This document shows positions 20,009 to 28,728 of a stretch of DNA of 38,524 bases, in pieces. This DNA is from Chloroflexota bacterium. GTDB lineage: Bacteria; Chloroflexota; Anaerolineae; UBA4142; SHND01. Each line of letters starts with the position of its first letter. The stretch's first letter is position 1. A model generated the notes under the pieces. It searched no databases, was not told the DNA's origin, and worked only from the letters and a program-made list of their open reading frames with translations. The translations under genes were made by a program, and so were the position numbers. The stretch lies in the NCBI GenBank assembly GCA_029778615.1, contig JAKOPZ010000281.1, positions 1 through 38,524 of the forward strand, read 5' to 3'.

Positions 20009-21214
20009 ATGCAGCGCGCTATTGTTCTCGCTGAATATTTCTCAAATGCCGACCATCATCTTTTGGCAGGGTTTTTGGTTGGGCAGGGCGATCCGCTCGC
20101 GCCAAGTGATTCTGAAATCAACGAGGTCATTCAAACCGCGCGGGCACACCGCGTTGACCGAATGCTGGAATGGAGCTTGCGGCAGCGCGGCATCAAGGTT
20201 GAAGAGTCCGCGTGGCGCGCGCTGGCGCGCGGCGACCAAGCTGCTGTGCGTCGTTATCTCATTTTCAAATCCGCGTTTCAAGATGTCACGCGCGCGCTCG
20301 GCAAAGCAAACATCCCTGCCGTATGGCTCAAAGGTTGGGCGCTCGCGCATACCATCTACCCAATGCCCACCTTGCGCCCGATGCGCGATTTGGATTTGCT
20401 CGTTCCGCCAACAGAGCGTGAACGCGCCAAGGCATGTTTGGCGCAGCTGGGATATACCCAAGACGAATACCCGCAACTCGACGTGGTCCGAGAGATGCGC
20501 CATCACGATGTTTTGCGCGGACGCGTAACCGTAGAACTTCACACCAAACTAATCGGGCTGCGTTCCAAACTTTTTGGCGAATCACAGCGCGAATGGTTTT
20601 GGGCGCACACGCGCGTCCTGACGGCACAAGATTTCCAGTACAGCGTTTTCGTGCCCGAAGCCGAACTGTTGTATTTGTGCGCGCACGCGCTGCTCCAGCA
20701 CGGCGAAAATGAATTTCTGCTCCAACGCTATTTGGATATTCATTTGCTCATCCGGCAGAATCCACAGTTGGACTGGGGACTTGTGCTGGAGCAAGCAGTA
20801 GAGTTTCGTTGGAGTTTTGCCGTCATGCGCGCGCTGGAAATCACGCGTGACCATTTTGGCACAACGACTCCCAATGCGTTTTTGTCAGAATTAGCATCGC
20901 GGCGTCACGCGGACGAAGACCCGCGCAACACCGTCTGGATTGCTGCTGATTCCACTCGCTTTGAAACGACGCGCGGTCTGTTGCGCGGCATGGGAAAGCG
21001 CGAAAAAATTGTGTGGGCGCTGGCGTCGCTTTTTCCTCCCCCTTCGTTTGTGCAATGGCGCTATCATGTTTCATCCGTTTGGCAGATTCCGTTTTTCTAT
21101 TTCTATCGCTGGTTCTCGATGGCGCGCGACGTGTTGCAAACTATGCTAAAATACCTGAAATCAAAAATTCACGCGCGCACCGCGCGTTCGTCGAGGAGCC
21201 AACATGGACACTGA
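20009..21214 (+). CDS. Lasso-cluster nucleotidyltransferase-family tailoring enzyme
   Basis: 401 residues of the uncharacterised nucleotidyltransferase family seen in RiPP clusters. The region KANIPAVWLKGWALAH followed by LRPMRDLDLLVPPTERERA (D-x-D near residues 127-129) is the nucleotidyltransferase-fold active site; HHDVLRGRVTVELHTKL is the third acidic strand. Family members in paeninodin/pseudomycoidin-type clusters act after the kinase on the C-terminal phosphate of the lasso peptide; in pseudomycoidin the homologue is linked to hexose addition. Here it is the first gene and overlaps the precursor 1 gene by 11 nt, supporting joint expression. There is no Shine-Dalgarno sequence. Its real donor is unknown. 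Confidence 0.85.
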   Translation: MQRAIVLAEYFSNADHHLLAGFLVGQGDPLAPSDSEINEVIQTARAHRVDRMLEWSLRQRGIKVEESAWRALARGDQAAVRRYLIFKSAFQDVTRALGKANIPAVWLKGWALAHTIYPMPTLRPMRDLDLLVPPTERERAKACLAQLGYTQDEYPQLDVVREMRHHDVLRGRVTVELHTKLIGLRSKLFGESQREWFWAHTRVLTAQDFQYSVFVPEAELLYLCAHALLQHGENEFLLQRYLDIHLLIRQNPQLDWGLVLEQAVEFRWSFAVMRALEITRDHFGTTTPNAFLSELASRRHADEDPRNTVWIAADSTRFETTRGLLRGMGKREKIVWALASLFPPPSFVQWRYHVSSVWQIPFFYFYRWFSMARDVLQTMLKYLKSKIHARTARSSRSQHGH

Positions 21215-21389
21215 ATTCGAGACCATTGAACCCCTTTACACACAGGATTTAGCAGTGGCTGACAAACCCAAGCAGACGTGGGAAACTCCAACTGTGCGGA
21301 TTGCCAAGACAGAAGATACTGCCTCTGGCGGCTTTTCTTCGTTTTTTGAGAATACAAACTATTATCCCAATACGGCTGCTATCTCGTAG
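21204..21389 (+). CDS. Lasso peptide precursor 1
   Basis: 61 residues. GAGGAG lies 4 nt before ATG 21204, inside the end of the nucleotidyltransferase gene. Leader features: W26-E-T-P29-T-V31 and T39, the W/Y-x2-P-x-hydrophobic pattern recognised by the B1 protein, with Thr 13 residues after the Trp as in paeninodin-type leaders. Cleavage between A40 and S41 would put Thr at -2 and give a 21-residue core (41-61) with Ser1 and Glu9; cleavage one residue later gives Gly1 and Glu8. Core residues include FFENTNYYP and the C-terminal Ser61, a candidate phosphorylation site. Bulky F and Y residues after the ring could plug the lasso. Confidence 0.88.
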   Translation: MDTEFETIEPLYTQDLAVADKPKQTWETPTVRIAKTEDTASGGFSSFFENTNYYPNTAAIS

Positions 21390-21424
21390 AACAATTCCCT
21401 TGCCCATTCATCCGAGTCACGTCC

Positions 21425-22321
21425 GTGCCATTCTCTTATACCGCGTTTGGTTTGACCATCTCCTCTGAACTTGAACTTGCCGAATTGCTCGCACATGACG
21501 CCGTGTGTGATGTGACGATTCAATTTGGCAATGTCCCCGAAAATTTAGATTCACCGACCGGACGCGGTGTGTTGTATCAAGTCACGCCGCAACAATTTTT
21601 GCTGAACCTGCCTGACACGGCGCGCTATCTCGTCGCGCACGGTGATTCCATCTTGATTGAACGCGCGCCGAACGCGCCGGACAATCAAGTGCGGTTGTAC
21701 CTGCTCGGTTCCGTGTTCGGCGCGCTCTTGCATCAACGCGGCGCATTGCCGATTCACGGCAGCGCGATTGAAACGCCGCGCGGCGCGGTGATTTTTTCGG
21801 GACCGTCGGGACGCGGCAAATCTACGCTGGCGTGGGAATTTCAGCGGCGCGGTTATCGTCATTTGTGCGATGATGTGTCCGTCGTTGGATTCGATGAACA
21901 AGGCAGACCGATTGTCTATCCCGCGTATCCGCAAATGAGCTTGTGGGCGGACGTGTTGGACAAACAAAAATATGCGCGCGCCGACCTCCGCCCCGTTCAT
22001 TCCGAATTGCAAAAATACGCGCTGCCTACGCGCGAATCATTCAACGCCGCGCCCGTGCCGTTGTTTGCCGTGTACGTTCTCTATCCTGTCAACACGGACA
22101 CGCTGGAAATCACCCCGCTGAAAGGTTTGGACAAATTACAGATTCTCACTGCCAACACCTATCGCCCACGTTTCATGGCGGCGATGGGCAAACGCGCGCA
22201 GCATTTTCAATTGGCGACGAACGCGGGAAAATTTATTCATACGCGCAAGGTGGTGCGTCCCGTTACCCCGTTTCGTTTGCAAGAGCTCGCCGATTTGATT
22301 GAAAAGGATTGGGCGACATGA
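21425..22321 (+). CDS. Lasso peptide C-terminal serine kinase (HPr-kinase-like)
   Basis: 298 residues from GTG 21425. The central P-loop GPSGRGKST (about 126-134), preceded by LLHQRGALPIHGSAI, and the acidic HLCDDVSVVGF are those of HPr kinase/phosphorylase-like proteins. In paeninodin and related clusters such kinases phosphorylate the side chain of the C-terminal Ser of the precursor. Both precursors here end in Ser, which fits. The C-terminal part is less conserved (ITPLKGLDKLQIL). It follows precursor 1 by 35 bp and overlaps the sulfotransferase by ATGA. No good Shine-Dalgarno sequence precedes the GTG, so the start is uncertain. Confidence 0.88.
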   Translation: MPFSYTAFGLTISSELELAELLAHDAVCDVTIQFGNVPENLDSPTGRGVLYQVTPQQFLLNLPDTARYLVAHGDSILIERAPNAPDNQVRLYLLGSVFGALLHQRGALPIHGSAIETPRGAVIFSGPSGRGKSTLAWEFQRRGYRHLCDDVSVVGFDEQGRPIVYPAYPQMSLWADVLDKQKYARADLRPVHSELQKYALPTRESFNAAPVPLFAVYVLYPVNTDTLEITPLKGLDKLQILTANTYRPRFMAAMGKRAQHFQLATNAGKFIHTRKVVRPVTPFRLQELADLIEKDWAT

Positions 22322-23172
22322 GCGAAATCGTTTGGCTCGCGTCGTATCCCAAATCGGGCAATACGTGGCTGCGCGTTTTCCTCGCCAATTATTTGAACAA
22401 CGGCGAAAAACCTGCCAATATCAACGAATTGAATGTGGGACATATCGCCAGCGCGCGCAATTCCTTTGAAGAACTCGTCGGCGTCGAAGCATCGGACCTC
22501 ACGCCGACCCAAATTGAAAATTGTCGCCCGATGGTTTATCGCCTCTTTGCGGAGACCAATTCCGAAACGATGTTTCTCAAAGTGCATGACGCCTTTCTCA
22601 ACACCTCCGCAGGCGAGACCATGTTTCCCGCTGCGGTGACGCGCGGCGTCGTCTATCTCATTCGCCATCCGTGCGATGTTGCCATTTCGTACGCGCATCA
22701 CAATTCCCATTCGATTGACCGCGCGATTGAGTGGATGAATGATGAGAGCCATACCTTGGCAGGACGACAAGATGGCGTGAATGTACAATTGGAACAAAAA
22801 TTATTGACGTGGAGCAAGCACGCGCACAGTTGGCTCGGTTCGGGGTTGAATTGTCATGTCATACGTTACGAAGACATGCTCGCACAGCCGCATGAAACAT
22901 TTGGCGCGGTGGTAAAATTTGTGGGACTCGATTATGACACACTGCGTTTGCAGCGCGCGTTGGAATTTTCGCGCTTTGAAGAATTGCAGGCACAAGAACA
23001 GCGCGAAAATTTCCGAGAACGCCCGCCGCGTGCACCCAATTTTTTTCGGCAAGGCAAAGCCGGTGCGTGGCGCGAAACCTTGTCCGTTGACCAAGTTGCG
23101 CGCATCGTTGACGCGCACCGCGACGTGATGCAGCAGTTCGGTTATCTCGACGAAAAAGGAAATGTGCTATGA
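22318..23172 (+). CDS. PAPS-dependent sulfotransferase of the lasso cluster
   Basis: 284 residues. It has the 5'-phosphosulfate-binding loop WLASYPKSGNTWLR near the start, the 3'-phosphate motif VVYLIRHPCDVAISYAHH in the middle and the C-terminal FFRQGKAGAWRETL, all standard for sulfotransferases that use PAPS. The start at 22318 overlaps the kinase stop codon (ATGA), so translation is coupled. Being locked between kinase and B1 genes it should modify the lasso peptide; Tyr53/Tyr54 of precursor 1, core Ser/Thr side chains or the phosphate are candidate acceptors. Precursor 2 has no core Tyr. The acceptor is inference. Confidence 0.9.
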   Translation: MSEIVWLASYPKSGNTWLRVFLANYLNNGEKPANINELNVGHIASARNSFEELVGVEASDLTPTQIENCRPMVYRLFAETNSETMFLKVHDAFLNTSAGETMFPAAVTRGVVYLIRHPCDVAISYAHHNSHSIDRAIEWMNDESHTLAGRQDGVNVQLEQKLLTWSKHAHSWLGSGLNCHVIRYEDMLAQPHETFGAVVKFVGLDYDTLRLQRALEFSRFEELQAQEQRENFRERPPRAPNFFRQGKAGAWRETLSVDQVARIVDAHRDVMQQFGYLDEKGNVL

Positions 23173-23441
23173 CTCTGGATACCACTCTCGTTCGCAACAA
23201 TTCCCTCACCACTGCCGAACTGGACGGTCAAGTAGTGATGCTCAGTCTGGAAACGAATCGCTACTATGGGTTGAATTCTGTCGGCACGCGCATTTGGGAA
23301 CTCCTCGCGCAACCGATGACCCTTGCTGCGGTTTGTGATACATTGCAGAATGAATACGAGGTCACGCGCGAGCAATGTGAAACAGAAGTTCTCGCCGTCG
23401 CGGAAAAAATGTTTCAAGAAAAACTTGTGCATAAAAACTAA
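23169..23441 (+). CDS. Lasso biosynthesis protein B1 (PqqD-like leader-recognition protein)
   Basis: 90 residues. It is a winged-helix RiPP recognition element of PqqD type: a beta hairpin (LDGQVVMLSLETNRYYGLNSVG), then TRIWELLAQPMTLAAVCDTL and a final helix. Such proteins bind the leader peptide and present it to the peptidase B2. The ATG overlaps the sulfotransferase stop codon (ATGA) and the stop abuts the ATG of the cyclase gene. B1 and B2 are separate genes, as usual outside Proteobacteria. Confidence 0.92.
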   Translation: MTLDTTLVRNNSLTTAELDGQVVMLSLETNRYYGLNSVGTRIWELLAQPMTLAAVCDTLQNEYEVTREQCETEVLAVAEKMFQEKLVHKN

Positions 23442-25340
23442 ATGAGCGCGCTCTTTGGCATGTGGCAAAAAAACAACGCGCCCGTTGCGCCCGCGTTCGA
23501 CGCGATGGAAAACGCGTTATCCGAATGGCAATGCGATACGCGCGCGACATGGTGCGATACGCAAATCGGCATGGGCGCGCGTTTGTTGTACACCACACCC
23601 GAATCGCTTCACGAACGCATCCCGTTCACACATCCCGAATATCCACAATTCATTCTTGTCGCCGACGCGTGGCTCGACAATCGCGCGGAATTGTGCGACG
23701 TCTTTCAAATTCCGCACATGGAACGCGCGCACGTCTGCGACAGCGAATTGATATTGCGCGCGTACGAAAAATGGGGCAACGCGTGCGCGGACAAGCTGCG
23801 CGGCGATTTCGCGTTCGCGTTGTGGGACGCGCATCAAGAACGTTGGTACTGCGCGCGTGATTTCACGGGCAGCAAGCCCTTTTTTTATTTCGCTTCGACG
23901 GCGCTCTTTTGCTTTGCGTCCGATGTGCGCGCTGTGTTGGCGTGTCCCGATGTGCCGAACCAACTCGATGAAGTGATGCTCGCCGCGAACTTGGTACAGT
24001 CAACGATTACGGCGGAAAAGCGGCGCACCTTTTATCAAAACGTTTTCAGAATTCCGCCCGCGCATTTCCTCGTCGTCACGCGCGCCCAAGCCGCGTTGAC
24101 GCGCTATTGGTCGCCCGAAAACATTCCGCCCATTCATTTTGCCAATCCCGCCGCGTATGCGGAACACACGCGCGAAATGTTGGAACGCGCGGTGCAGCGC
24201 GCGACGCGCACCGAATATCGCGTTGGCGCACACTTGAGCGGTGGGCTGGATTCGACTACGGTTGCGATTCTCGCCGCGCGCGCGTTGCAGACGCGCGACA
24301 CAAGTTTGAACGGCTATTCGTGGTCGCCGCCGCCATCGCAGACGCAAATTGAGAACGACGCAGATGAACGCGCGTTTATCGAAACCGTTTGCGCGCAAGA
24401 ACATATCACGCCGCGTTATCTGGAATACTCGGTGGACGATGTGGTGCGCTTGTACACGCGTGATTTCACACGCATTCCGCGCGAGATGGCGCTGCGCGAA
24501 GAACAGCTTCAAGACCTCGCGGCGCAAGACCAAGTGCGCGTTCTGCTTTCGGGGTGGGGCGGGGATGAATTGATTTCGTACGGCGGAGAGGGCTATCTCG
24601 GCGACTTGCTGCGGCGCGGCGCGTTCTTGGCATTGCATCGCGCGCTCGTGCAGCGATTGCCGCGCGGCGCACGGTATCCGGCACGCGTGCGCGCGTACGG
24701 CAACCTGCTGTACCGTCACGCACTTTGGATGTTGCTGCCGGATTGGGCGTGGGAAAAATTTTCACCGTATGCCGTTCCGCGTTTCGAGACGCGTTATATC
24801 CATCCCGAATTTTTGGAACGCCAGCGCGCTGCTGTGTATGCCCGGCGCGACCCAGTGCCGCGCGTGCATCCTTCCGTGCGCGGGACGCAGATCGTTCGGC
24901 TGGAGCATGGACATTTGACGCGCCGCATGGAAAGCTGGGCAACGCATGGCGCGAAACGCGGTGTCGTGTATCGTTACCCGTTGTTGGAGCGCGAGCTGGT
25001 GGAAGGAGTGTTGGGACTGCCGCCGATGCTGTATCATCAGCACGGACGTGCGCGCGCCGTGCTGCGCGCTGCGACGCGCGGGGTTTTGCCTGAAGCGATG
25101 CGCGTCGCGCGTTCCAAAGATGAACCGACCGCACTTGGAATTGTCGGCGCAAAAATTTTGGAAGGCACGCGCGCGTTGTACGAACAAACTCGCGCGCAGT
25201 TCGCTCAGCATCCCGCGACGCACTATGTGAATGTTGACGCGATTCAACAGACCATGACGCACGGCACATTGGAATGGAAAGAGGCGCGCCCCGTACAAGT
25301 CGCGCTCTCTTTTTTTTACATTGCGCAGCTCAATTCATAG
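23442..25340 (+). CDS. Lasso cyclase (protein C, asparagine-synthetase-like)
   Basis: 632 residues. The C-terminal synthetase half has the PP-loop HLSGGLDSTTVAILAA (S266-T272) that binds ATP, and LLSGWGGDELISYGGEGY. These enzymes adenylate the ring Asp/Glu and close the macrolactam with the core N-terminus. The N-terminal domain keeps the glutaminase-like fold (CDSELILRAYEKWG, LRGDFAFALWDA) but begins MSALFG without the catalytic Cys2, as expected of lasso cyclases, which use the peptide amine rather than glutamine. It follows B1 without a gap and precedes B2 by 15 bp. Confidence 0.95.
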   Translation: MSALFGMWQKNNAPVAPAFDAMENALSEWQCDTRATWCDTQIGMGARLLYTTPESLHERIPFTHPEYPQFILVADAWLDNRAELCDVFQIPHMERAHVCDSELILRAYEKWGNACADKLRGDFAFALWDAHQERWYCARDFTGSKPFFYFASTALFCFASDVRAVLACPDVPNQLDEVMLAANLVQSTITAEKRRTFYQNVFRIPPAHFLVVTRAQAALTRYWSPENIPPIHFANPAAYAEHTREMLERAVQRATRTEYRVGAHLSGGLDSTTVAILAARALQTRDTSLNGYSWSPPPSQTQIENDADERAFIETVCAQEHITPRYLEYSVDDVVRLYTRDFTRIPREMALREEQLQDLAAQDQVRVLLSGWGGDELISYGGEGYLGDLLRRGAFLALHRALVQRLPRGARYPARVRAYGNLLYRHALWMLLPDWAWEKFSPYAVPRFETRYIHPEFLERQRAAVYARRDPVPRVHPSVRGTQIVRLEHGHLTRRMESWATHGAKRGVVYRYPLLERELVEGVLGLPPMLYHQHGRARAVLRAATRGVLPEAMRVARSKDEPTALGIVGAKILEGTRALYEQTRAQFAQHPATHYVNVDAIQQTMTHGTLEWKEARPVQVALSFFYIAQLNS

Positions 25341-25355
25341 AATCAAAAACCGAAA

Positions 25356-25838
25356 ATGATTTCTGTCGTCCGGCGAGTTACAACTCTGGCTTGGCGCGAG
25401 CGCGCTTTTTTGGGCGAAGCGGTTTTTTATCTCGCACTCGCGCGTTTGGCGCTCTGGCTTTTTCCTTTCAATCGGCTCGCGCCGCGTTTTGGAAAACAGC
25501 ACTGCGAGTCCGCGCCGATGCTTACTTTAGATTCAGAGCGAGCCCAAGTACGCCGCGTGAGTTGGGCGGTTACGACCATGAGTCGTTTCGTGCCGTGGGA
25601 CAGCGCGTGCCTCGCGCAAGCGGTGGCAGGAAAAATGATGCTGCGCGCGCGACATTTATCCAGTACGTTATATCTCGGCGTCGCGTACGCGAACAATAAA
25701 AAAATGCTCGCGCACGCGTGGCTGCGTTGCGGCGACGTGTACGTCACCGGCGCGCCACAGCACAAACGCTTTACGGTGGTGGCAACTTTTGCAGAGATTG
25801 ATACTGCAGCGGATGCAACGACCGCGCACCCAGTTTGA
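25356..25838 (+). CDS. Lasso leader peptidase (protein B2, transglutaminase-like)
   Basis: 160 residues. The Cys-His-Asp triad of the B2 family is visible: Cys in PWDSACLAQAVAGKMML, His in LAHAWLRCG and Asp in the following GDVYVTG. It cuts the leader from the precursor with B1 so that C can cyclise the core. An N-terminal hydrophobic helix (VFYLALARLALWLFPF) is typical. It is the last gene of the continuous block; 190 bp with a promoter and a terminator-like hairpin separate it from precursor 2. Confidence 0.93.
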   Translation: MISVVRRVTTLAWRERAFLGEAVFYLALARLALWLFPFNRLAPRFGKQHCESAPMLTLDSERAQVRRVSWAVTTMSRFVPWDSACLAQAVAGKMMLRARHLSSTLYLGVAYANNKKMLAHAWLRCGDVYVTGAPQHKRFTVVATFAEIDTAADATTAHPV

Positions 25839-25876
25839 AAATTTTCGTCAACGCACGCGCGAAACGAATTGCTTTA

Positions 25877-25885
25877 TGTTATAAT
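25877..25885 (+). promoter_or_regulatory. Extended -10 promoter of lasso precursor 2
   Basis: TGTTATAAT combines a TG extension with a perfect TATAAT (25880-25885). The -35 is poor, as usual for extended -10 promoters. It predicts a start near 25892 and a leader of about 135 nt. Confidence 0.65.
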
Positions 25886-25903
25886 GTTTGACAAGTTTTT
25901 TTT

Positions 25904-25955
25904 GCGGCACCATCCGGCAGTTGCCGCAGCAGAGCTGGGGGGCTTTGCAGTTTTT
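25904..25955 (+). promoter_or_regulatory. Hairpins with terminator/attenuator character before precursor 2
   Basis: GCGGCA (25904-25909) pairs with TGCCGC (25922-25927). Next, GCAGAGC (25929-25935) pairs with GCTTTGC (25942-25948) and five T residues follow at 25951-25955. The second could end transcripts from the upstream operon, or act as an attenuator in the precursor 2 leader. A third weak stem GGGTA / TACCC lies further on. No known riboswitch class was recognised. Confidence 0.45.
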
Positions 25956-26027
25956 GTGGGGTAATTTCTACCCGCAGACAGCTGTAAAGAATGGCAAACA
26001 AATTTATCTCACTCAAAGGAGTTGTTT

Positions 26028-26234
26028 ATGCCCGCCAAATCCGCTTCAACCGCGTCACACCCCGACACACCGGAATCGCACCCATCTGTAGATTCCATGC
26101 CGATGCAAGCCCCGGACAAGCGCAACTGGGAAACCCCCGAACTCAAAATCGTTCCGACTGACGAAACCGAGAGCGGTTTTATTTTTGCTACAAGGGAAGA
26201 GACTACCATCCCCACGCGCCCTCTTGCGTCCTGA
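26028..26234 (+). CDS. Lasso peptide precursor 2
   Basis: 68 residues from ATG 26028 with AAAGGAG 6 nt upstream. The leader is longer and richer in Ser/Pro than that of precursor 1, but the recognition part is the same: W34-E-T-P37-E-L39-K-I then T47-E48-S49-G50. Cleavage before S49 gives Thr at -2 and a 20-residue core (49-68) with Ser1 and Glu9; cleavage before G50 gives Gly1 with Glu8 or Glu9. The core (GFIFATREETTIPTRPLA) has no Tyr and ends in Ser68. Beyond the ring the sequence differs fully from precursor 1, so the two products must differ. A strong terminator follows. Confidence 0.87.
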   Translation: MPAKSASTASHPDTPESHPSVDSMPMQAPDKRNWETPELKIVPTDETESGFIFATREETTIPTRPLAS

Positions 26235-26322
26235 AATCAAACGGCGTGGTTTGCGGCGCAATCTTCGCGCGGAGCGTGATGAGGGTACTTGGCTGCAAGC
26301 GCAATAGCAAATTGTTCATGGC

Positions 26323-26356
26323 GACGTGATGATTTTTCATCACGTCTTTTTTTTTT
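26323..26356 (+). terminator. Terminator of the lasso peptide cluster
   Basis: GACGTGATGA (26323-26332), 4-nt loop, TCATCACGTC (26337-26346), then ten T residues. It closes the cluster about 90 bp after precursor 2. Confidence 0.95.
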
Positions 26357-26429: not shown

Positions 26430-26927
26430 ATGGCACTTGTACCGGCCCCGCCCAAAAAACGTTCTGCCGCCATCGCGATTGTTGGATGGCTTTTATTCTT
26501 GAGCGCAATCCTCAATATCACGTTTGGCGCGCTGGACATTTTTGTTTCGGATGTGTTTTCGCAAACGGGCACATCGCTACCGATTTTGGCAGAACAAGTG
26601 GCGGATGATGAACTCACGGAACAAGAGTTCTTTTTGATTGATGGTGTCGTTTCGATATTCGTCGGTGTCGTGCAGCTCGGACTCACAATCGGTTTTTGGC
26701 GTGAGAAACGTTGGGCGTGGGTGGCTGCCATGTCGTGGCAAGCGTTCAAACTTTTGTTTGGCATCGTTGCCGCGCTCGCGGGTCCGGCGGATTTTGTTTC
26801 GCTTGCGTTTGCCATCTTGCTCGTGTTCACTTTGAACCAAACCGACGTGCGTCGCGTGTTCAATATTCGGCGTCAACCTGATGAATCCTCCTCTGTCACG
26901 CCCCTCCGTATCCTCGACAGCAACTGA
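26430..26927 (+). CDS. Unrecognised membrane protein with four predicted helices
   Basis: 165 residues. Helices at about 12-38 (AIAIVGWLLFLSAILNITFG), 70-90, 95-115 and 118-140 with a short acidic extracytoplasmic loop (ADDELTEQEFF) and a charged tail. No catalytic motif is seen. ATG 26430 is about 10 nt from the predicted transcription start and has no Shine-Dalgarno sequence. It overlaps the next gene by 47 nt, so the two form an operon. Its position just after the lasso terminator raises the possibility of a role in peptide immunity, but it has its own promoter and nothing in the sequence shows this. Confidence 0.7.
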   Translation: MALVPAPPKKRSAAIAIVGWLLFLSAILNITFGALDIFVSDVFSQTGTSLPILAEQVADDELTEQEFFLIDGVVSIFVGVVQLGLTIGFWREKRWAWVAAMSWQAFKLLFGIVAALAGPADFVSLAFAILLVFTLNQTDVRRVFNIRRQPDESSSVTPLRILDSN

Positions 26928-28728
26928 CCTCGAACTGCTGCGCGCGTTCGAGCCGGTCGTTCAGTACACCCAAGGCGAACAATTTTTTCCAATGGATGTG
27001 GAACGCTACATCCGCTTGTGTGCGCTGTGTGTACATTACCCGGATGGGCGCGAAGAAGTTTTGGTCCCGCGCGGCGAATTGACGATTGAAAAATTGGTAC
27101 AGCCGCGCAATCTGCAATTTGATGCGGTCGAGTACTTGCGTTTTGTGGCGCCGCAGACGCTGCAAGAAAGTGTCGGCGCGCTCGCCCAGGGACGCGCGAT
27201 GCACCGCGCGAAAAAGAATGTTTTCAAAGCCGGAGTGGGGCGCTTGGCGCGTGGCGGTTTGCTCCCGCGCCTCGCCGACGCCTTGTTTTCGCTGACGCTG
27301 CTCGCGCGCGGACGCGTGCCCGGCGCGGTAGCCGCGCAAGCAGAAATTCAATACGACGAGTTGCAGCAGGAGCAAGAAAAATATGTCTATCACGGGCGCG
27401 TGGTGCGCCAGAACGGTTGGATTGTTTTACAGTATTGGTTCTTTCTCGCATACAACAGCTGGCGTTCGGGCTTTCATGGCGTGAATGACCACGAGTCGGA
27501 TTGGGAAATGATGATGGTGTATTTGTACCAAGCGGATGGACGCATCATTCCCGAATGGCTCGCGTATGCGTCACACGATTTTCACGGCGACGATTTGCGG
27601 CGGCGTTGGGATGACTTGGCGGAAGTGAATTTCATAAATGGGCATCCGGTTGTGTTTGCCGGTGCGGGTTCGCACGCGTCGTATTTTCGTCCCGGCGAAT
27701 ATCAAGCCGAAGTGAGTTTGCCCTTGCCGCGTCCGCTCGAACGCGCCGCGCGCATGTGGGGACAATTTTGGCGGCAAACGCTCGGCATCGGCGGCGGCTA
27801 TGAAAGCACACCGTTTCGGATTCCCTTTGTAGATTTTGCGCGCGGCGATGGCTTGGTGATTGGTCCGCAGCAAGAAAAGGAATGGACGCCAAATGTGATT
27901 AGCGAAGCAACGCCGTGGGTGAGCGAATATCGCGGCTTGTGGGGTTTGTACGCGCGCGACCCCATCTCTGGCGAAAACGCGCCCGCCGGTCCCATGTACA
28001 ATCGCGACGGTTCACCGCGCGGTTCATGGTACGACGTGCTGGGCTTTGCGGGACTGGACAAAGTTCCACCGCCGCCGCAAGAACTGCCGCGTCTGGAAAC
28101 GCGCATGAACGAATTGAACGCGCGTTTGGCAGAAATCGAAGCCCAGCTCACGCCGCAAGTGAATGCACTGCAAGAGCTGGGGATTCAATTGCGCGCGCTG
28201 CAAGGTAACCCCTTTCTCGCGCTCCCGTATGAAACTTTGCAGCTCCAAGCCAACAAACTCTCCGAGCAAATCAAAACCCTGCGTCGCGAGCAAGCGGAAA
28301 AGGTTGCTCTATTGGAAACGCTTGCGCGGCGCGCGGAAAAATTGCGCGCCAATATTTCGGATGACCCGCGCGCGCATATCACGCATCTGGCAAAGCCGGT
28401 CAGTCTTGCCCAACTGCGCTTTAATCGTCTTGCCGAAGCGTGGGCGGCAGTCAGCATCAGCGCGCTGCTGCTCGGCATCGTTGCGATTCTCCTGCTGCAA
28501 CCGCACTGGTTGTTGGCGGGCGCAATGGTGATGATTGTGTGTTTTATTTTGCTCGAGTCCGTCTTGCGCGGGACCTACATCAACACTATCAATACCCTGG
28601 CTGTCATTCTCGCGGTGATTGCGGCAGTAATTCTCGTCGTGCAGTATTGGATGCAATTACTGATTGCGTCGTTGATTGCGATTGCGGTGTTTCTGTTGGT
28701 GCAAAAAGTGCGCGAGTTGAGAGAGTGA
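26881..28728 (+). CDS. Vps62-like domain protein with coiled coil and C-terminal membrane helices
   Basis: 615 residues. The N-terminal two-thirds contain the Vps62-type pattern: QYWFFLAYNSWRSGFHGVND, HESDWEMMMVYLY, WLAYASHDFHGDDLRRRWDD, NGHPVVFAGAGSHASYFRPG and later GPMYNRDGSPRGSWYD. In eukaryotes Vps62-family proteins are linked to vacuolar sorting; bacterial members have no settled function. Residues about 395-490 form a long coiled coil (LETRMNELNARLAEIEAQL). The tail (about 515-605) holds three to four transmembrane helices. So the Vps62 domain is membrane tethered through a coiled coil. Start at 26881 overlaps the upstream gene, without a clear Shine-Dalgarno sequence. Confidence 0.7.
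   Translation: MNPPLSRPSVSSTATDLELLRAFEPVVQYTQGEQFFPMDVERYIRLCALCVHYPDGREEVLVPRGELTIEKLVQPRNLQFDAVEYLRFVAPQTLQESVGALAQGRAMHRAKKNVFKAGVGRLARGGLLPRLADALFSLTLLARGRVPGAVAAQAEIQYDELQQEQEKYVYHGRVVRQNGWIVLQYWFFLAYNSWRSGFHGVNDHESDWEMMMVYLYQADGRIIPEWLAYASHDFHGDDLRRRWDDLAEVNFINGHPVVFAGAGSHASYFRPGEYQAEVSLPLPRPLERAARMWGQFWRQTLGIGGGYESTPFRIPFVDFARGDGLVIGPQQEKEWTPNVISEATPWVSEYRGLWGLYARDPISGENAPAGPMYNRDGSPRGSWYDVLGFAGLDKVPPPPQELPRLETRMNELNARLAEIEAQLTPQVNALQELGIQLRALQGNPFLALPYETLQLQANKLSEQIKTLRREQAEKVALLETLARRAEKLRANISDDPRAHITHLAKPVSLAQLRFNRLAEAWAAVSISALLLGIVAILLLQPHWLLAGAMVMIVCFILLESVLRGTYINTINTLAVILAVIAAVILVVQYWMQLLIASLIAIAVFLLVQKVRELRE

Follow-up and report, generated by a model that had tools for sequence, protein, structure and literature searches.

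A kinase (K) and a PAPS-dependent sulfotransferase (S) form a widespread two-gene module in lasso-type peptide clusters, inherited as one pair. One copy lies in the stretch of Chloroflexota bacterium DNA analysed here (38,524 nucleotides, hereafter the window), within an intact lasso peptide gene set, and we regard it as nearly certain that positions 20009–26346 are a lasso peptide cluster. Phosphorylated lasso peptides and stray sulfotransferase genes were known before; here, kinase and sulfotransferase make up one conserved module. The module predicts that sulfate stands beside phosphate, that the sulfate depends on the kinase, and that the site is the C-terminal Ser.

Organization of the cluster

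Eight genes, all on the forward strand, occupy 20009–26234 in the order N, A1, K, S, B1, C, B2, A2, followed by a terminator:

20009–21214, +: N, NTP_transf_5 nucleotidyltransferase-like protein (PsmN-type); Pfam PF14907, 1.8e-44; ~48% identical to a sister-species copy in the same place
21204–21389, +: A1, precursor; leader motif, Thr at −2, Glu9; shares 11 nt with N
21425–22321, +: K, HPr-kinase-like tailoring kinase; His111, Lys132, Asp149, Asp150; ~82% identity to the sister species
22318–23172, +: S, PAPS-dependent sulfotransferase; Pfam 2.4e-22; start inside the ATGA of K
23169–23441, +: B1, PqqD-like leader-recognition protein (Pfam/NCBIfam); ATGA overlap with S
23442–25340, +: C, asparagine-synthetase-like lasso cyclase; SGGLDST loop, no Cys2
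25356–25838, +: B2, transglutaminase-like leader peptidase; Cys85, His120
26028–26234, +: A2, precursor; leader HMM 3.3e-4; homologous sister-species precursor, tblastn 2.8e-10
26323–26346, +: strong terminator-like hairpin, 10 pairs then a T run, closing the cluster

A preliminary description made from the letters alone had placed all eight genes correctly, with B1, C and B2 consecutive, and its family calls agree with Pfam and NCBIfam: lasso B1, B2 and C, HprK-like, nucleotidyltransferase and sulfotransferase families were all matched, K weakly in Pfam. The start of S, ATG 22318, corrects that first reading. The description also had the three tailoring enzymes locked together by overlaps, which is the case for K/S and S/B1 (both ATGA) but not for N, which overlaps A1 and is separated from K by A1 and ~35 nt. 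The start of A2 is most likely ATG 26028, which has AAGGAG upstream. Next to the cluster we found no ABC exporter gene among the ORFs of the window and genome that were scanned.

B1 matched PqqD in Pfam (7.3e-19) and lasso_PqqD_Bac in NCBIfam (1e-22). C matched Asn_synthase and lass_lactam_cya (1.4e-111), with a score under the latter model's full-length cut-off; as had been proposed, it lacks Cys2, carrying Ser at position 2 in place of the glutaminase Cys, and it keeps the SGGLDST loop. B2 matched lasso_biosyn_B2 (5.6e-30), and the Cys and His anticipated for it are present as Cys85 and His120, invariant in 55 of 55 relatives. The expected residues of both C and B2 are thus in place.

K is HprK-like, with a weak match to Pfam Hpr_kinase_C (1.3e-3) and one to HprK_rel_A (8.4e-8), and carries the His-Lys-Asp-Asp set (H111, K132, D149, D150) described as essential in lasso kinases (PMC9266682). 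S belongs to Sulfotransfer_1 (2.4e-22), with the PAPS loop YPKSGNTW, His90, R116/S124 and RxGxxGxW intact; PKSGNT (the PAPS 5'-loop), K88, H90, R116 and S124 were unvaried in 82 of 82 sequences. Its AlphaFold2 model has a mean pLDDT of 94. R47, R70, R183, W165, H168, W172, E227 and E234, conserved in the family, are candidate residues of the acceptor pocket. PAPS can be made by the host, whose genome encodes an APS kinase. The proposal of K, N and a PAPS sulfotransferase in a paeninodin/pseudomycoidin-like cluster was therefore borne out, with families matched and catalytic residues in place.

The two precursors, as described earlier, have a common leader motif, WETPxx(V/L)xI...T, and different cores. 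The A1 leader ends in KQTWETPTVRIAKTEDTA, with a predicted core of SGGFSSFFENTNYYPNTAAIS and the C-terminal end AAIS; the A2 leader ends in KRNWETPELKIVPTDETE, with a predicted core of SGFIFATREETTIPTRPLAS and the C-terminal end PLAS. Both cores have Ser1 and Glu9 (the predicted ring) and a C-terminal Ser, with Thr at −2. The A1 core has the pair Tyr13/Tyr14, and that of A2 has no Tyr. The macrolactams would have monoisotopic masses of 2254.981 (A1) and 2175.132 (A2), rising to 2334.947 and 2255.099 with HPO3, to 2334.938 and 2255.089 with SO3, and to 2414.904 and 2335.056 with both; HPO3 and SO3 are 9.5 mDa apart. The cluster is thus predicted to make two lasso peptides.

Conservation in a sister species

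In a sister species of the same genus (locus L014, the same as L030), N-K-S-B1-C-B2 occur in the same order. The precursors downstream of them number at least five, and Ser1-Gly2, Glu9 and a C-terminal Ser are present in four. Identity between the two species was ~83% for K, 79% for S, 82% for B1, 65% for C, 66% for B2 and ~47% for N, making K, S and B1 the most conserved of the cluster enzymes. The corresponding dN/dS values (K ~0.19, S ~0.16, B1 ~0.17, C ~0.29, B2 ~0.20, N ~0.22), about 0.16–0.30, indicate that all six enzymes are under purifying selection. The combined leader and ring pattern gave 45 matches around related clusters and 3–8 in shuffled sequence. The sister cluster, the dN/dS values and the shuffles together rule out chance or misread ORFs.

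Kinase and sulfotransferase are paired across phyla

We collected relatives by S alone from the genomes of 84,980 species and analysed the best 80 of at least 575 loci; these are mostly from MAGs, so the wider S family may differ. The best 80 fall in Chloroflexota, Pseudomonadota, Bacteroidota, Acidobacteriota, Desulfobacterota, Verrucomicrobiota, Actinomycetota, Bacillota, Cyanobacteriota, Armatimonadota, Riflebacteria and Wallbacteria, which, with the window included, amounts to about 12 phyla. Cultured strains that have the module include Massilia solisilvae JCM 31607 (predicted core LGSHGGAPDMTTIS, macrolactam mass 1324.608), Sporomusa sp. KB1 and Roseibaca ekhonensis CECT 7235.

K was near S in 79 of 81 loci (the best 80 plus the window), and its motif was nearly always kept among the best 80 of at least 575. 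Of the two loci without K, one (L071) ends at a contig end and the other (L104) has no K in the whole genome; a further K-less arrangement, S-B1-B2, occurs at L016 in a separate genome. The two genes overlapped or lay at most 20 nt apart in 70 of the 76 loci measured, with an exact 4-nt overlap in 25, and in L052 they are fused in a single reading frame, S first. An apparent second fusion (L075) was rejected, the downstream half of K being in a different frame. Counts for the remaining genes in the 81 loci, many of which end at contig ends, were 64 (B1), 60 (C), 53 (B2) and 42 (N); N was present in 25 of the 44 loci with long flanks.

K is also common without S, whereas S without K turned up in rare loci only. 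Among 400 Chloroflexota genomes, S was found in 4 and K in 17; all four S-bearing genomes have K, and in most of the 13 that have K alone it sits in a lasso-type cluster lacking S. In Sporomusa, all three copies of S have K in the same stretch, and in 299 genomes of its phylum S was found in Sporomusa only. S, almost always found with a K that often lacks it, thus behaves as a dependent partner of K and is inherited with it. In a tree of 77 K proteins from S-bearing loci and 16 K-only ones, the latter from Chloroflexota only, we counted 2 label changes against a shuffled mean of 15, and well-supported branches force just 1; the K proteins of S-bearing clusters appear, from these sequences, to be close to one clade. 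In loci with all five proteins, the distance matrices of S and K agreed more closely than those of any other two (r 0.725); their lead over other pairs is modest and, in a smaller set, not certain (over S–C in 362 of 500 resamples), and the correlation partly reflects shared descent.

APS kinase is encoded inside 8 of the best 80 of at least 575 loci, where our own estimate of the chance expectation, taking one gene per several-Mb genome and ~1 Mb of loci, is well under 1. Desulfosporosinus has the order K-S-N-APS kinase-ABC exporter-C-B1-A-B2, and in Massilia APS kinase lies directly 5' of K. Pairing and fusion show functional coupling of K and S, not a common target residue.

The C-terminal serine as the candidate acceptor

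Leaders around related clusters have a common WxxPxL...T. In a leader-model search, 55 of 68 precursors (53 loci) ended in Ser, a share that may be high because the seeds of the model were chosen with a C-terminal Ser; a pattern search that ignored the last residue gave 36 of 45. Ser occupied the five positions before the C-terminal end in 7–18%. No other hydroxyl was widely common to the 59 assigned cores, of which only 25 contain Tyr; Tyr is thereby ruled out as the general sulfation site, since most cores, and that of A2, lack it. A minority class (L029, L031, L047, L068, L075 and L093) has no C-terminal Ser; its rings carry G4-(S/T)5 and D8. In linear polyphosphorylated peptides (LPP; PMC13381572), internal Ser is the target of a K homologue, and, with ~20% of precursors lacking the C-terminal Ser, the handle can evidently move. 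All five proteins follow precursor type (with or without the C-terminal Ser) about equally, so that this grouping does not single out K or S as the reader of the C-terminus.

Given the precedents, K very probably acts on the C-terminal Ser: PadeK phosphorylates this residue of the linear precursor (PMC8498205), and published work on PadeK and ThcoK describes the same kinase motif together with a specificity for C-terminal Ser (PMC9266682, PMC8498205). That S sulfates the peptide seems likely too, if a little less firmly so. We place S at the K-modified end because K's known target is the sole hydroxyl that most S substrates share, and we lean slightly towards this site. By analogy with PsmN, which decorates the pseudomycoidin phosphoserine with hexoses (PMC8498205, PMC9266682), N may act on the C-terminal phosphate.

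In the pathway that we propose, B1 would bind the WxxPxL leader and K, by analogy with PadeK, would phosphorylate the linear precursor at its C-terminal Ser. S, using PAPS, would work downstream of K and add a sulfuryl group to the same C-terminal handle, its target being either the phosphoserine or a group built by N on that phosphate. Were the sulfuryl group attached to the phosphate itself, a labile anhydride would result, which counts against this pathway. B2 would then cut one residue past Thr(−2), and C would close the nine-residue Ser1–Glu9 ring, giving mature peptides that end in an anionic cap bearing phosphate and sulfate. Cells probably put both groups on these peptides; for the pathway as a whole, two lasso peptides with a phosphate- and sulfate-bearing C-terminal cap, we put the chances as even.

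S could also act on another Ser or Thr of the precursor. More broadly, it may sulfate a different, non-conserved hydroxyl (Ser, Thr or Tyr, for example Tyr13/Tyr14 of A1) independently of K, both enzymes being linked only through the B1-bound linear precursor. The Tyr pair of A1 would suit such a role, S often adjoins B1 as well (as in the S/B1 ATGA overlap here and the K-less S-B1-B2 of L016), and the nearest solved folds, Teg12, Teg14 and StaL, sulfate glycopeptide hydroxyls. We nevertheless judge it rather unlikely: Tyr is absent from A2 and most related cores, the C-terminal hydroxyl is the only one widely common, and S almost never occurs without K although K does occur without S.

Somewhat less probable still, and a sub-case that overlaps the C-terminal-cap pathway, is that S is of the carbohydrate type and sulfates a sugar or other group put on the phosphate by N or by a glycosyltransferase encoded elsewhere. 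The hexoses added by PsmN speak for it; N occurs in this cluster and in 42 of the 81 loci, with the order K-S-N-APS kinase in L055 and L079; and LppN needed an unknown partner (PMC13381572), a role for which S is a concrete candidate in related pathways. Against it, no N was found in roughly half the loci, including 19 of the 44 with long flanks.

The boldest reading, which we think improbable, combines several of these elements. K and S would build an unprecedented mixed phosphate–sulfate C-terminal end, or drive a sulfate-dependent elimination to a decarboxylated enamide; the module would have arisen about once and be spread over some twelve phyla; and S would be the partner missing for N in K-S-N clusters.

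That sulfation or phosphorylation is only transient, activating the beta-hydroxyl of the C-terminal Ser as a leaving group to give, for example, a decarboxylated enamide end in the manner of the CurM sulfotransferase/thioesterase step, seems to us very improbable. Being a beta-hydroxy acid, a C-terminal Ser is the type of group that CurM-type chemistry uses, which counts for this reading, as do a weak sequence match of S to CurM and the presence of retinol dehydratase and LGS1, for which sulfate is a leaving group, among the structural matches of S. Against it, no decarboxylase or thioesterase partner was identified, the sequence demands no such chemistry, and phosphorylated paeninodin has been isolated as such (PMC9266682). 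It is just as improbable that the cluster is decayed or silent and yields no product: the lack of an adjoining ABC exporter gene and the fast divergence of the precursors would fit, but all frames are open with catalytic residues kept, enzyme dN/dS is 0.16–0.30, and the genome has an APS kinase for PAPS.

Comparison with known systems

The preliminary description knew of no characterized product that is both phosphorylated and sulfated. In the open-licence literature we found neither a sulfated lasso peptide nor an account of K–S pairing, an absence that is weak evidence, and the relevant passages of a 2026 review (PMC13352647) have no mention of lasso peptide sulfation; to that extent the claim stands. 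The gene combination itself is not new: HPr kinase with sulfotransferase was mentioned for some anaerobe lasso clusters in 2014 (PMC4289311), and Zhu et al. (2016), as cited in PMC8498205, saw putative genes for a sulfotransferase and a nucleotidyltransferase. Nor is it peculiar to this cluster, K and S being a widespread module. What is new here is the K–S pairing and its spread over about 12 phyla. Like those Firmicutes and anaerobe clusters, the present one joins HPr kinase and sulfotransferase to lasso genes; the co-occurrence was noted there in passing, its role unclear, whereas the present analysis shows that pairing is near-obligate, that the pair shares descent, and that fusion and linkage to APS kinase occur.

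With the paeninodin type (PadeK/ThcoK/SyanK), the cluster has in common separate B1, C and B2, a His-Lys-Asp-Asp kinase and precursors with a C-terminal Ser; it differs in the PAPS sulfotransferase tightly linked to the kinase, in the predicted Ser1–Glu9 ring and in having no adjoining exporter gene. The pseudomycoidin cluster (psm) likewise has a kinase and an NTP_transf nucleotidyltransferase-like N that is thought to act on the phosphate, but psm N lies between B2 and D where ours is upstream of A1, and the reviews consulted describe no sulfotransferase for psm. LPP pathways (PMC13381572), like ours, use K, N and a discrete RRE to modify Ser; they have no cyclase, use a signal-peptidase-like LppS and have no reported core-gene sulfotransferase, and the presence of cyclase C and leader peptidase B2 rules out LPP membership for the cluster described here. 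S, finally, is closest among solved folds to Teg12 (Z 23.9, the highest), StaL (Z 21.9) and Teg14 (Z 21.0), at 25% identity, with the same PAPS site and peptide natural-product acceptors; those enzymes act on hydroxyls of glycopeptides, while S falls in a family of its own, linked to lasso clusters.

Variation among related lasso peptide loci

The loci compared with the window cluster, most of them chosen by similarity to its PAPS-dependent sulfotransferase, differed in how the sulfotransferase and the HPr-kinase-like tailoring kinase are encoded. At L052:7869-10049, a single open reading frame carries the sulfotransferase first and then the kinase, an apparent sulfotransferase-kinase fusion; a near relative, L067, has the sulfotransferase and a broken kinase, in different frames. 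Four sulfotransferase-bearing clusters each have two kinase genes, which are arranged in tandem in three of them (L053, L062 and L075) and separated by a few kb in the fourth, L058. The kinase-sulfotransferase clusters L029, L031, L047, L068, L075 and L093 hold a precursor class that lacks a C-terminal Ser and has the ring pattern G4-(S/T)5-x-x-D8 after 'DTA' or 'RTL'; two kinase genes are present in several of these six loci.

L016:6038-7677, from a genome of the same order, has sulfotransferase-B1-B2 with neither kinase nor cyclase (C) nearby. The Bacteroidales loci L064, L072 and L076 contain kinase, sulfotransferase, B1, B2 and the NTP_transf_5 nucleotidyltransferase-like protein, the cyclase being absent from the available stretch of these short contigs. 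An Acidobacterium kinase-sulfotransferase lasso cluster includes a gene for a JmjC-type putative hydroxylase (L046:9178-10377).

In the window, the 615-aa protein encoded directly after the cluster (26881-28728) had no Pfam match. The window's own genome holds a second B1-B2-C-like set without a sulfotransferase (L002/L022; G000:C103, about 2-5 kb), with an HprK-like ORF on the opposite strand.

In two neighbouring Desulfosporosinus clusters (L055:7060-15535 and L079), genes in the order kinase-sulfotransferase-nucleotidyltransferase-APS kinase-ABC exporter lie 5' of the lasso genes, which follow as C-B1-precursor-B2 in L055 and B2-B1-C in L079. This arrangement places a PAPS-making enzyme within the lasso cluster.
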